A stretch of DNA of 64,000 bases from Verrucomicrobiia bacterium (GTDB lineage: Bacteria; Verrucomicrobiota; Verrucomicrobiia; Verrucomicrobiales; DEV007): contig JAUICH010000014.1 in assembly GCA_030427505.1 (NCBI GenBank), positions 62,001 through 126,000 on the forward strand, read 5' to 3'. Position 1 is the stretch's first letter; every line of letters starts with the position of its first letter. The notes beneath the pieces are model-generated. The model was not told where the DNA came from, made no database searches, and worked only from the letters and a program-made list of their open reading frames with translations. Positions 2,757-64,000 of this stretch are shown here, piece by piece. Position numbers and translations under genes: made by a program.

Positions 2757-4142
2757 TCACAATACCCTGGGTAGAAGGGGAACGGGGGCGAGGCGCGGAC
2801 CCGCCTCCATGGGGGAGATCAGGTCCCATTCGCGGCGGCCCGTGGATTCCGCGACCAGGGTCGCGATGGCGCCGGCGATCAGGATGTAGAGGGGGCTTTT
2901 CATGTCATTGACCAGGCAGTCCACGAAGTAGAGCGCCACCAGCGTTACCAGGGGCACGGCTCGGGCGATGGCGGGCTCGGCCCAGGTCTTCGGGGGATAG
3001 CGGCGCAGGAATCCGATCACTGGCCAGGTCATGACCAGGGCAAAGGAAACCAGACCGGTGATGCCGGACTGACCGAAGATGATGATCCAGTAGGAGTCGG
3101 TGATGGAAATGTCGTTTCCGGCTTCGTCGTAGATGCGGGACCGGCCCCAGCCGCCCCAGCCAAACACGGGCCGGGCCAGTGCCTTCTCAATGAGCATTTC
3201 TTCATTGAGGGCGCGGAACTCAAAGGAGGCGGCGCGTTCCTCGCTGATCTTGCTGAAAAAATTGACCATCCCTTCTCCGGTCCAAAGGCCCGCGACTTTC
3301 ATCGACACCGCCAGAACAGGAAGCAGCGCCACCAGCTTCAGCGGGAGGCCAAAGCGAAGTTTGCGGCAAAGCGTGATGATGAGGTAGCCCGCGCCCAGCA
3401 GGCCAATGGCCCCGAACGACTGGCAGGCCACGGCGGTGACCACCACCACGATGACCAAGGTGCGGAGCGGAAAGCCGAACACGGTTTTCACCGTGCCGTC
3501 CCACTTCCAAAGAATCAACCCGGCCAGCGCGCCACCCGCCATCCACATGCCCACCATGAGCCCATGCTGCATGAAGACCGTGGGCCGGTAGCCGATGGGC
3601 CGCACCGTCTGGCTGAAGATGTGGGCGTGGTGACCGTAAACCCAGTTGTGAAGTTGCGGGCTCATCACCATCTCCAGCCAGCAAAACGGGCTGTAAACCA
3701 GCGCCCCCAGAAAGAGTCCCCAGAGCAGGTCTCGGATGGCCTCGCGGTTGCCGAAGTAAAGCCGCCCGATCAGGTAGGGCGCGAACCAGGTGGTCAGGTA
3801 GTTTTTGGCGTTGGAGAACCCATCATACGCGCCGAGCCCATTCGAGAGAGAGGAGAGCATGGGCGTCAGGCACCAGAAAAGAAGCACGCCGTCGTAAAGC
3901 CGCCAGCGGAATGCCGCCAGCCGCCCGCGATCGCGCAGGAACGTCGCCAGCAGCACGGCCAGGGAGGCGGCGAAGGTCTTGTTGTAGTCTGGCAGGCCCG
4001 GGAAGTAATAGGTGTCGTTAGGCAGAAACATCCACGCCGTGATGAAGGCCACCAGCGCGGCGCGGCGTGGCGGGAGCTTCCCATACAGCCACAGCACGAA
4101 CGGGAGATACCCGAACATCGCGATGGGGATGAGGAAGCTCAT
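2757..4142 (-). CDS. O-antigen ligase/polymerase-like membrane protein of the EPS locus
   Basis: A 461-residue protein made mostly of hydrophobic segments, about ten or more by eye, with a large soluble loop after 'FSKISEERAASFEFR'. That layout fits WaaL/Wzy-type proteins, which polymerise or ligate lipid-linked glycans at the outer face of the inner membrane. A 'GWGGWGRSRIYDEAGND' segment followed by 'DSYWIIIFGQSGI' is typical of the O-antigen ligase-like proteins of bacterial EPS loci. It is the last gene of the minus-strand EPS cluster, 33 bp after a GT4 gene. Polymerase and ligase cannot be told apart here. Confidence 0.75.
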   Translation of the reverse strand: MSFLIPIAMFGYLPFVLWLYGKLPPRRAALVAFITAWMFLPNDTYYFPGLPDYNKTFAASLAVLLATFLRDRGRLAAFRWRLYDGVLLFWCLTPMLSSLSNGLGAYDGFSNAKNYLTTWFAPYLIGRLYFGNREAIRDLLWGLFLGALVYSPFCWLEMVMSPQLHNWVYGHHAHIFSQTVRPIGYRPTVFMQHGLMVGMWMAGGALAGLILWKWDGTVKTVFGFPLRTLVIVVVVTAVACQSFGAIGLLGAGYLIITLCRKLRFGLPLKLVALLPVLAVSMKVAGLWTGEGMVNFFSKISEERAASFEFRALNEEMLIEKALARPVFGWGGWGRSRIYDEAGNDISITDSYWIIIFGQSGITGLVSFALVMTWPVIGFLRRYPPKTWAEPAIARAVPLVTLVALYFVDCLVNDMKSPLYILIAGAIATLVAESTGRREWDLISPMEAGPRLAPVPLLPRVL

Positions 4143-36201: not shown

Positions 36202-36251
36202 CCCAGGCCTGACGGCCTGGGCTGGTATGTGTTGGGCCTTCGGCCCTCCTT
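36202..36251 (+). repeat. Double-hairpin intergenic repeat, copy 4
   Basis: CCCAGGCCTGACGGCCTGGG followed by a linker and GGGCCTTCGGCCC. The remaining gap 35830-36480 has no coding potential apart from repeats and the terminator at 36402. Confidence 0.6.
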
Positions 36252-46991: not shown

Positions 46992-47040
46992 CCTAGGGCT
47001 GACGCCCCAGGCTAAGCGCTGCCGGGCCTTCAGCCCTTGG
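46992..47040 (+). repeat. Double-hairpin intergenic repeat, copy 5
   Basis: CCTAGGGCTGACGCCCCAGG, linker with AAGCGC, then GGGCCTTCAGCCC. The gap 46776-47198 also has a shorter hairpin near 46888 (CCTGGGGCGCGAGCCCCAGG) and no convincing gene. Confidence 0.65.
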
Positions 47041-61126: not shown

Positions 61127-62662
61127 TCACCCCTTCGTCACCTCCCCAACCAAGTCCAGCTTCCGGTCGGTGAGGTAGGCGTAGCGGTTGATCCAGATGC
61201 CGTGTGGGCTGGCTTGCCAGGCGGTTTCGAGGCGTTTGGCGAAGTCTTCGTCGGGGCCGTAGCCGTGGGCGAGGGCGTAGATGGGGGTCTGGCCGGCTTC
61301 GGCCTGGGCTTGGCGGATCTTGCGGGTCATGGCGTGTTCGCCGGCGGCGTGGGGCTGGTCCGGGCCGGGGTAAGCGTAGGCAGCCAAGGTGTCGAGACCG
61401 GGGCCGTCGTCGATGTCGAGGAGGCGGACGAGGGCGTGGGTGAGGAGTTTTTCGTCGAGCTTCGGATTCGCTTCCATGAGCTGGGTGCCGTAGAAGTTAA
61501 GAATCATCATCCAGTGCATGGTATATAGCTTCGCGCTGATGGCGGAGCTGTAGGGAGCCACGCGACCGAAGTCCAGGCCAGTGGCCAGGGTCCACGGCGG
61601 GGGGAAGGCGTTGGGCATGACTTCCTTGTCCTGGGCGCCGGAATCGTCGAACACTTTGCGGAAGCCGGCCACGGTGCGCTCCACGATCTCCGCCTTGAAG
61701 CGGAGGAAATCGCCGATGCCGGGATGATCGGAAAGCAGGCGGATCAGGGCGAAGCGGCCGCCGTCCCGCTGGGTGAAGGGGCGCAGGTCGCGGTTTTTCA
61801 AGCTGCCGTGGAGGTAGGTGTAGAAATCGCCCACCTCGCGGCGCATGCGCTCGAAGTCGTAGCCCATCTTTTCGGCGTCGGCCTGGGCGTGGACGCCGAA
61901 GTCCACGAAGCAGGAGTTCAGCAGGTAGGGCGGATACTCCGGCCAGTCGAAGCGGATGCCGTGGATGCCGGGGTACTGCTGGAGCAGGTCGCGGATGAGG
62001 GCGTGTTCGTAGCCGATGATCTCCGGGCTGCTGAGGGTGCCGTTCTTCGAGACGCGCTTGCCGGGCAGGCTGCCGTCGGGCAGGCGCGGAGTGTCTTCAT
62101 CGACGGGTCCGCCGAACTGGACGCGGTAGCCGGGCGGGATGGCGGCCTGGATCTGGAAATACACCTTCAGCCCGGCTTTCCGGGCGGCCTCGACGAATTT
62201 TCCGACGATGGGGCCTTCCTTTTGGGTCAGTTCGGTGGCCGGAGCGGGCTGGTAGCGCAGTCCTTTATAGAGAGGCTGATCGGGCACGAAGCTGGGGGCG
62301 GTGGTCACCCAGACCTCCCGCTTTCCAAAGAGCGGCCGGTCGAGAAGCCGCACGGCGCCCGCGCCCGCGTCGGCGGGAGGTTCGCGGTTCCCGGTTTCCT
62401 GGTCCGCCTCCGCCATGACGTAGGGAGAGGTGGCGACGGCGGTCGCGCCCACACGGTTGATGAGGTTGTCCAGGACGCCCTCGATGCCCTCGCTCTGGAT
62501 GTATTCCGGCAGGACGGTGACGCCGAGGAATTTGCCGTCGGGGCGGGTGCGTGGGGTGGTGGCGGAGGCGGGAGCGGTGTCCTGGGCATGGAGAGCGACA
62601 GGCAGGGCCTGGGCGGCGGAAGCTGCGGCGGCGGCGTGGAGAAAGGTGCGTCGATCGGGCAT
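61127..62662 (-). CDS. Tat-exported glycoside-hydrolase-like (TIM-barrel) protein
   Basis: A 511-residue protein starting 'MPDRRTFLHAAAAASAAQALPVALHAQ', a twin-arginine export signal (RRTFL). The body has barrel-like segments ('LKVYFQIQAAIPPGYRVQ', 'GIHGIRFDWPEYPPYLLNSCFVDFG', 'SSPEIIGYEHALIRDLLQQYPGIHGI') as in glycoside-hydrolase-type proteins of Opitutae, with acidic residues in 'FDWPEYPP' that could be catalytic. No assigned family or substrate is certain. It stands alone on the minus strand, upstream of the intron. Confidence 0.65.
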   Translation of the reverse strand: MPDRRTFLHAAAAASAAQALPVALHAQDTAPASATTPRTRPDGKFLGVTVLPEYIQSEGIEGVLDNLINRVGATAVATSPYVMAEADQETGNREPPADAGAGAVRLLDRPLFGKREVWVTTAPSFVPDQPLYKGLRYQPAPATELTQKEGPIVGKFVEAARKAGLKVYFQIQAAIPPGYRVQFGGPVDEDTPRLPDGSLPGKRVSKNGTLSSPEIIGYEHALIRDLLQQYPGIHGIRFDWPEYPPYLLNSCFVDFGVHAQADAEKMGYDFERMRREVGDFYTYLHGSLKNRDLRPFTQRDGGRFALIRLLSDHPGIGDFLRFKAEIVERTVAGFRKVFDDSGAQDKEVMPNAFPPPWTLATGLDFGRVAPYSSAISAKLYTMHWMMILNFYGTQLMEANPKLDEKLLTHALVRLLDIDDGPGLDTLAAYAYPGPDQPHAAGEHAMTRKIRQAQAEAGQTPIYALAHGYGPDEDFAKRLETAWQASPHGIWINRYAYLTDRKLDLVGEVTKG

Positions 62663-63009
62663 GGGGGAGGGGGGGTAAAAAGGTTTAGAGAGTGCTGATT
62701 ACGAGTAGGATACGGAGATTTTTACGTTAGAGAATGTAGAGGGAATTTGTGGGGAAACTAGCGGCGGGATCTTAGTAAAGGCAGGTGAGCTGGGGAAGAT
62801 CAAGCAAATGAGGGTGCGAGGGATGTTGAGGGGACGTCTCGGAAAGGTGGAAAGCGATCTACCTGCCCGTCCGGCTCGGACCGCGTTCACGGAAGGAGAG
62901 AAAGTTTGCCTAATTTGTTTGGAAGGACATAGGCGTGATTGGGCGATGCGGAGGGAGAGCTATCTTGTTCTCTTACTGAGAAGGCAGTTTGCCGTTGTTT
63001 CTCGTGAGC

Positions 63010-63033
63010 CCGGTTCGCGAGTTCCTCGCCCGG
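63010..63033 (+). other. Stem-loop just upstream of the group II intron
   Basis: CCGG...GCGAG-TTC-CTCGC...CCGG forms a hairpin whose right arm ends 13 bases before the intron. Group IIC introns typically insert after stem-loops such as terminators, so this may be the insertion target. Confidence 0.5.
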
Positions 63034-63046
63034 AGGTCGAGGACCA

Positions 63047-63736
63047 GTGCGCCCCGCATGGGCGATAACTATTCATCTGAAAGGAGATGAACGGAAAGAG
63101 TGACAAAGAACCGTAGAGAAGCACAAGCCGCCGAGGGCGACCGGAGTGGTGAAGGAAGTGTGTATCAAAGGCACGACCGCAGGAACACGAACTGGCAGAG
63201 AGGCCGGGCGCGGGTGATGAGCATGCTGGTGAATGCGAAATCCGACGAAGTCACCGAAAGACGCGTCAGGTAGAGCCAGGCGGCACGGGCCGAAAGTTAT
63301 CGCGCCTTACCCGGGGAGATCTCCTTGGCCCTCGGAACCGAGAGCTGGGGAGAAGTCAGCAGAGGCCGTAGTAGCGAAGAAGGCGGTGAAAGCCGCTGGA
63401 GCCAAGGGCCGAAGAACCAACGAAACAGACGACCCGACCGACTCGGTGGACCGTGCGAGTAGACATCCGAAACAGAGCGGAGCGGCAACTGCGGCAGCTA
63501 CCGTATTCTGGCGGGGAAAGGCAAAGGCGGTGGATCCGCCGGAGCCCGAACCGTGGATGTCCAGTTTGGACCAGCGGCGGAGGAAGGAGACAAGCAAGTG
63601 CTGAATGGACCGGTGGACGCCACCGGTATCCGCTCGGGCCAAGACCCGAGCCGTGGTTCAACCGCCGGATGCTGAAAACGGCATGTCCGGTGGTGTGGGA
63701 GGGGCGACGGGCGCGAGCCCGTCGCCTCGACCCGAT
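63047..63736 (+). mobile_element. ORF-less group IIC intron
   Basis: A 690-bp self-splicing-type RNA element. It starts GTGCGCCCCGCATGGGCGAT (group II 5' consensus GUGYGCCC). Interior blocks match group IIC introns of the Oceanobacillus type: 'AGGAACACGAACT' near 63181, 'TTACCCGGGGAGATCTCC' near 63306 and 'AGAAGTCAGCAGAGGCCGTAGTA' near 63352. Domain V is a 34-nt hairpin (63661-63694) with a CGC catalytic triad, a G-U pair and a 2-nt bulge. Domain VI ends ...CGACCCGAT with a bulged A seven bases from the 3' end. Domain IV (about 270 bp) has no reverse transcriptase. The ends are set by consensus, so a one- or two-base error is possible. Confidence 0.88.
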
Positions 63737-63838: not shown

Positions 63839-64000
63839 ATGATGATGAAACGCCCCTATTCTTTTTCCCTTTCTCTATTGGGCAGCCTCTGTGTGATGCT
63901 GCTGATCCATTTGTCCGCTGGTTCGTCCATGCTGCGTGCCGAGGAAGCGGCGAAGCCGAAGGCGGCGAGTCCGGAGCCATTGGCGTTGAGCGAAATTGAA
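63839..64000 (+). CDS. Start of a secreted protein (3' end outside window)
   Basis: 54 codons are present: three Met codons, then 'KRPYSFSLSLLGSLCVMLLIHLSAGSSMLRAEEAAKPKAASPEPLALSEIE'. The first 33 residues form a typical signal peptide with a likely cleavage after 'MLRA'. A Lys/Ala/Pro-rich mature start follows. The frame is open to the window end. Identity cannot be judged; it lies 103 bp downstream of the intron and may be the gene whose leader the intron entered. Confidence 0.7.
   Translation, partial: MMMKRPYSFSLSLLGSLCVMLLIHLSAGSSMLRAEEAAKPKAASPEPLALSEIE

Follow-up and report, generated by a model that had tools for sequence, protein, structure and literature searches.

The window, a 64,000-nt stretch of DNA analysed as a whole, carries a 690-nt element between a divergent minus-strand gene starting at 62662, which has no Pfam match, and a sense-oriented esterase-like gene (Table 1). 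The start codon of the latter lies 102 bp 3' of the element, and its product has an N-terminus that looks signal-like by eye, which agrees with the original prediction of a secreted-protein gene about 100 bp downstream. That prediction described 63047-63736 as an ORF-less group IIC intron, and both limits stand: the 5' end, GUGCGCC, aligns with GUGUGCC in relatives that bear a reverse transcriptase (RT), and the 3' end, ...CGAU, is the final position of a full-length match to RF00029 (Intron_gpII). Two Acido-Lenti-1 RNAs (RF01687) also lie in the window, at 36202-36247 and 46992-47037.

Table 1. Positions of the intron, its parts and its flanking features in the window.
Feature	Position	Strand	Evidence or score
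Predicted stem-loop(s) immediately before the intron, in two versions	63001-63043	+	9 (version 1) and 3 (version 2) of 200 shuffles as good
IBS1, ACCA, the 3'-terminal four nt of the 5' exon	63043-63046	+	4/4 pairs with EBS1
Intron, ORF-less, supported as group IIC, D1-D6 present	63047-63736	+	690 nt; Rfam, folding, covariation, relatives
Domain I core, RF02001 (group-II-D1D4-3)	63131-63305	+	90.5 bits, E 6.7e-17
EBS1, UGGU, loop of a D1 hairpin	63227-63230	+	assigned by position and pairing
Presumably D2-D3 and the start of D4, RF01998 (group-II-D1D4-1)	63324-63409	+	43 bits
Domain IV leader retained from an ORF-bearing ancestor	63421-63600	+	alignment to relatives
Perfect hairpin ACCGGTGG/CCACCGGT at the site of the absent RT ORF	63609-63627	+	
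Second hairpin, GCTCGGG/CCCGAGC, immediately 5' of D5	63632-63651	+	
Domain V, 34 nt, CGC triad at 63663-63665	63661-63694	+	folding, covariation
Domain VI, unpaired A at 63730	63696-63736	+	folding, covariation
422-aa esterase-like gene, start; extends out of the window	63839-64000	+	PF00756

The element has the terminal features of a group II intron (5' GUGYG, 3' AY and a bulged A in D6) and a D5 hairpin with the catalytic triad and a two-nucleotide bulge, and its D1-D4 core lies in order 5' of D5 (RF02001, then RF01998). The Rfam D1-D4 families carry no class label in the output, and the assignment to class IIC comes from the other evidence given below. The RF00029 match over D5-D6 (63660-63736) scores 40.1 bits, barely above the cut-off of 40, so that taken alone it would be weak evidence. 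The fold of D5 matches the original description and is equalled by none of 200 shuffles (z -5.06). D6 forms a stem of 12 bp capped by a GCGA loop; its unpaired A, seven nt before the 3' end, is the expected bulged A and presumably the branch point. Across nine copies of D5-D6, including that of the window, both sides have changed in 14 of 29 pairs and 98.1% of the cells are paired, against only 37 to 46% for shifted pairings; none of 500 shuffles equals the observed values for cells paired, double changes or covariation score, and 18 of 500 do so for further pair types. One double change in D5 of the window copy, G-C to U-G, leaves the pair intact. Folding of the full 690 nt is more stable than that of any of 20 shuffles (z -6.2). 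In D1-D3, 85 of 90 predicted pairs stand in the window copy, as do 89 and 86 in two RT-bearing relatives, a count biased in favour of pairing because the pairing model was built from these same three sequences. Changes private to the window copy at ungapped D1-D3 pairs comprise 12 that are compensatory, 3 that keep the pair and 2 that break it, and the compensatory ones could be older than the ORF loss.

The nearest full-length relatives are introns of G001 (same family), G287 (same order) and G421 (same class), whose RNAs are 72% (1-378), 74% (1-506) and 75% (1-373) identical to the window intron and which, at 1913, 1915 and 1927 nt, carry an RT in D4. The RT frame of G001 comprises 429 codons, with identities of 72% in G287 (3-425) and 63% in G421 (17-423), and scores 363 bits against the group II maturase family TIGR04416 of NCBIfam (cut-off 300). 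Among solved proteins it is closest to the GsI-IIC RT (369 bits), followed by the 7uim group II RT (290), which we take to be a IIC enzyme, LtrA (135) and the 6me0 RT (94), presumably TeI4h. It is this relative that displays the IIC-type RT of the intron family, the window copy itself being without one. G287 carries a much-copied IIC intron: its draft genome has at least 30 D5 rows (40 of 69 candidates were scored). Of the 29 extra copies listed, the 17 that were fetched (L073-L086, L089-L091) all sit close to a contig end, at 44-61 nt, and wherever the contig is long enough the last codons of the RT precede D5.

Class IIC introns typically insert just 3' of a terminator or attC stem-loop and pair with the exons through EBS1-IBS1 (3-4 pairs) and EBS3-IBS3, and the insertion site is partly in keeping with this. 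The stem-loop foreseen 5' of the intron is predicted in two versions that differ in their pairing, the first at 63023-63043 after another at 63001-63021 (63001-63050 folded) and the second a single hairpin over 63012-63045 (63012-63046 folded). It is, however, only moderately better than shuffles, has no U-run, and drew no terminator call on the intron strand in the promoter and terminator scan, which returned one terminator-like site on the opposite strand (chance mean 1.6). The stem-loop beside the intron is stronger in L087, L088 and L183 and weak in L184. Two G287 copies, L087 and L088, have a hairpin and then CTA before the intron (2 and 3 of 200 shuffles as good), and G574 has a long hairpin with CTA (0 of 200); weaker hairpins precede the introns of G421 (8 of 200), G001 (11 of 200), G287 C151 (17 of 200) and G595 (61 of 200). 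EBS1 of the window copy occupies a loop position that reads UAG or UGG in relatives. Its partner ACCA has a frequency of 0.004 on the intron strand, and 63043, the first base of IBS1, doubles as the last base of the predicted upstream stem. Elsewhere EBS1 and IBS1 form 3 of 4 pairs in G574 and G595, 2 of 4 in G287 C151, 1 in G001 and 1 plus a G-U in G421; the motif was not found in G542, and the L087 and L088 sequences stop short of its position. Since the pairing is poor in G001, G421 and G287 C151, it is no strict rule in the relatives. Taken with the covariance matches, the RT-bearing relatives and the IIC-type RT of G001, the predicted stem-loop and the EBS1-IBS1 pairing support, at the level of sequence, the identification of 63047-63736 as a real group II intron, ORF-less and of class IIC.

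It had further been suggested that splicing could affect the leader of the downstream gene, and an intron in sense orientation so close 5' of a start codon might indeed be a leader element of the esterase gene whose splicing controls expression. No promoter is called around the intron, though, nor a terminator on its strand. Moreover, a stem-loop is the usual IIC target (PMC4424553), so that a role for the gene would be unneeded, and we regard this suggestion, which the scans leave unsupported, as highly improbable.

The RF01998 match ends at 63409, which leaves 251 nt before D5, slightly less than the roughly 270 bp first given for D4. These 251 nt contain no RT-like frame, and the absence of an RT or maturase from D4 was borne out. 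A tblastn search with the frames of two relatives finds no RT domain in the window intron; its single hit below E 1e-3 (2.7e-4) pairs D1-D3 RNA with the open stretch 5' of the L029 RT. Four open frames cross D4, of 101-123 codons and with one extending past 63736, and none of the four has a Pfam match. Still present is the D4 leader, retained through AAGGAG, which by eye precedes the former start codon, and GUGCUGAAUGGA, which aligns on AUGCCUGAAGGA, the RT start of G001. The pairs of a leader hairpin at 63473-63510 stand in the window copy and partly in four relatives, and covariation over the leader is weak overall (covariation term +0.8). Beyond the start-codon region the ORF is missing over some 1.3 kb, and two hairpins take its place. 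At the position of the second, G060 has a hairpin whose loop, by eye, contains the stop codon of the RT, and G072 has one that resembles it, at a place where the reading frame is unseen. From GTCAGCAGA to D5 the window copy measures 305 nt and the seven RT-bearing introns measured span 1483 to 1552 nt (G001 1538, G287 1540, G421 1552). The ORF might conceivably have been dropped during the building of contig C17, and the hairpin at the site of the absent ORF would suit such an artefact. Yet the intron lies inside this 144-kb contig, and the ORF is lost with other junctions in five other genomes, though these too are assemblies; we hold an assembly artefact to be the least probable of the explanations considered.

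These five further ORF-less introns, each with D1 and D5-D6, occur in G011, G111 and G114 (same order) and in G574 and G595 (same class), and their GTCAGCAGA-to-D5 distances are 259, 262, 248, 231 and 315 nt, respectively. The copies of G011, G111 and G114 are probably IIC, judged solely by their relatedness in the tree. This tree comprises 13 introns, and its six ORF-less members require 5 changes of state, at least 3 of them forced by well supported branches; G595 joins the RT-bearing G298 (99/98), and the places of the window copy and G574, each among sisters that bear an RT, are poorly resolved (4 of 10 inner branches are weak, and G111 is on a long branch). Because ORF-less copies are spread across relatives and the tree calls for these changes, loss of the ORF appears to be recurrent in this intron RNA family. 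A single deletion ancestral to all ORF-less copies is disfavoured: they form one group in 0% of bootstrap trees, and their D4 junctions differ.

The D5 survey behind these comparisons took 40 stretches from the matches listed, some chosen for a known RT, and D1 was scanned in 37 of them (L135, L148 and L160 being too short). Three of the 37 are ORF-less with D1 and D5 (L140, L142, L147), eight have D1, D5 and an RT (L151-L155, L157-L159), and the 26 without a D1 match are pieces, contig-end cuts or divergent copies, some with RT pieces. By position, the RT-like tblastn hits in L140, L142 and L147 fall in the open stretch 5' of RT starts, that is, in intron RNA; L142 has a second D5 with an RT-like hit near it. 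A second set of 15 fetched stretches gave 2 ORF-less introns (L183, L184), 3 whose RT is complete or nearly so (L185, L187, which is without its 5' end, and L189) and 10 partial ones. All were picked by similarity, and the counts are not to be read as frequencies. In G076 two D5-D6 pieces lie 1.2 kb apart on the same contig (L030:2661-2735 and 3907-3954), with no RT match and no D1 match over threshold within the 6 kb fetched. As for maturases in the genomes with ORF-less copies, G595 has an RT over the TIGR04416 cut-off, the RT of G111 is cut by a contig end, and G011 and G574 have partial RTs only. G114 (98% complete), whose ORF-less copy is L140 (G114:C57), gives no TIGR04416 match at E 1e-5, and its intron may be a second orphan.

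The original prediction had supposed a maturase supplied from elsewhere, but none was found in the draft genome that contains the window (6.41 Mb, 56 contigs, 96.5% complete) by searches with PF00078, PF08388 (GIIM) and TIGR04416. PF08388 has zero matches and PF00078 two (L004:955-2463 and L005:1210-2331); TIGR04416 finds only these same two RTs, at 71 and 51 bits against the cut-off of 300. Their best PADLOC models are RT_XIII and RT_III-A, and they are best taken as retron RTs and unlikely to act as the maturase. An open frame of 360 codons lies beside the RT at L005:1210-2331. In a draft of this kind a maturase copy may be missing from the assembly, and the ORF-deleted intron could then still be spliced and mobilised in trans, as in Thermosynechococcus, by an enzyme encoded in the unassembled part. 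Mobile introns do break assemblies, as all 17 fetched extra copies of G287 illustrate; G595 combines an ORF-less copy with an RT over the cut-off elsewhere, and the truncated RT of G111 may be read alongside it; and bacterial ORF-less introns are nearly always accompanied by a related IEP (PMC4424553). None of the three intron places in the window's own genome is at a contig end, however, so no collapsed multi-copy family is apparent there, and we entertain continued action in trans tentatively, at somewhat less than even odds.

Besides the full copy, these three places comprise two remnants. The first, C24:11698-11806 (L039), is a 5'-truncated piece of 109 nt, identical to intron positions 582-690, that begins 1 nt after the hairpin at 63609-63627 of the full copy. 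It interrupts a sulfatase gene, of which about 120 codons precede it (Sulfatase profile 1-68 of 301); the G034 homologue, by comparison, runs to 478 codons and covers the profile in full. The sulfatase frame stays open through the piece (218 codons stop to stop), with a hydrolase gene next. Reverse transcription may conceivably have halted at the hairpin 63609-63627; just as well, a full-length copy may later have been truncated by a deletion, or the assembly may be wrong at this point. The second, C6:467087-467193 (L003:1501-1607), is a D1 remnant 87% identical to intron positions 172-278; it has the same GCTGGTGA loop with EBS1 as the full copy. Plasmids gave no match to the intron. The exact 32-nt D5 occurs 0 times in each of genome_contigs and viral_contigs, from which records of this genome are possibly excluded, and no empty site was found.

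With two other remnants in the genome, the full copy might itself be a dead relic of the same origin, its RNA no longer splicing and decaying like the C6 and C24 pieces. The two private broken pairs in D1-D3 would agree with this, and at an intergenic place loss of splicing would presumably cost little. The number of D1-D3 pairs that stand is nevertheless near that of the RT-bearing relatives, the double change in D5 has kept its pair and the EBS1-IBS1 pairing is intact; we consider a relic unlikely, if by no means negligible.

Our preferred reading is that the window intron is an ORF-deleted group IIC ribozyme, with a probability of about 0.82. This figure covers the ORF-deleted IIC reading, and the present state of the intron is shared among action of a maturase in trans, decay as a relic and an intron now immobile. 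A group IIC retro-intron would have entered beside the stem-loop by the usual IIC route of stem-loop recognition and EBS1-IBS1 pairing. Its RT/maturase ORF would then have been lost almost entirely (~1.3 kb, beginning at about codon 4 and stopping shortly before the end), with the catalytic RNA (D1-D3, D5 and D6) and the D4 leader retained. While a maturase was available, the intron would have been spliced, and perhaps moved, in trans, and the identical C24 copy suggests recent copying or rearrangement. Since no maturase is visible in the genome, the intron is at present most likely immobile, unless a maturase sits in the missing part, and splicing, if any, would proceed alone or with a host factor.

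The window intron adds a new case to a type of element that is uncommon but already known, and among the matches listed in our literature searches no title concerns ORF-less IIC introns of Verrucomicrobiota. Its interest lies in a genome that seems to have no maturase and in the recurrence of ORF loss among relatives. If our reading is true, a small orphan IIC ribozyme with ORF-bearing sisters and separate losses would be a test case for the step from retro-intron to splicing-only intron, which is often invoked for organellar introns and for the origin of spliceosomal ones. A broader proposition, that IIC introns of this bacterial class repeatedly lose the RT ORF and that the window and G114 copies persist as maturase-independent splicing introns, self-spliced or spliced by host proteins as IIC counterparts of C.te.I1, seems to us doubtful. 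The view that ORF-less introns are uncommon accords with a 2015 review, where they are rare in bacteria, nearly always occur with a related IEP and have C.te.I1 as the sole exception known (PMC4424553), but is partly qualified by the figures taken from a 2022 census, which make the category not so rare (281 of 2,381 introns without an IEP in representative genomes; PMC8919778). The census introns, drawn from RefSeq genomes, are of the same category as ours, with D1-D4 and D5-D6 and no RT within 1,300 bases.

Among known systems, RT-bearing group IIC introns such as GsI-IIC have the ORF in D4, whereas the window copy has none, and the link to them runs through the G001 RT, which is closest to the GsI-IIC RT. 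We take the introns of O. iheyensis and B.h.I1 to be further RT-bearing IIC examples (named in part in PMC4424553). Common to these introns and the window copy, compared feature by feature, are D5-D6, a compact RNA, an adjoining stem-loop (in the window copy a predicted one) and EBS1 in a D1 loop. The TeI3 introns of Thermosynechococcus elongatus belong to class IIB. The likeness lies in one large D4 deletion that removed most of the ORF and left remnants; TeI3 comprises 17 copies, mobilised in trans by IEPs that their own genome encodes (PMC2882425), whereas here there is one full copy and no IEP was found. C.te.I1 of Clostridium tetani resembles the window intron in being ORF-less in a genome where no IEP gene was found, and differs in being class B-like, in splicing, alternatively, in vivo and in having a D4 loop unlike IEPs (PMC3919590).
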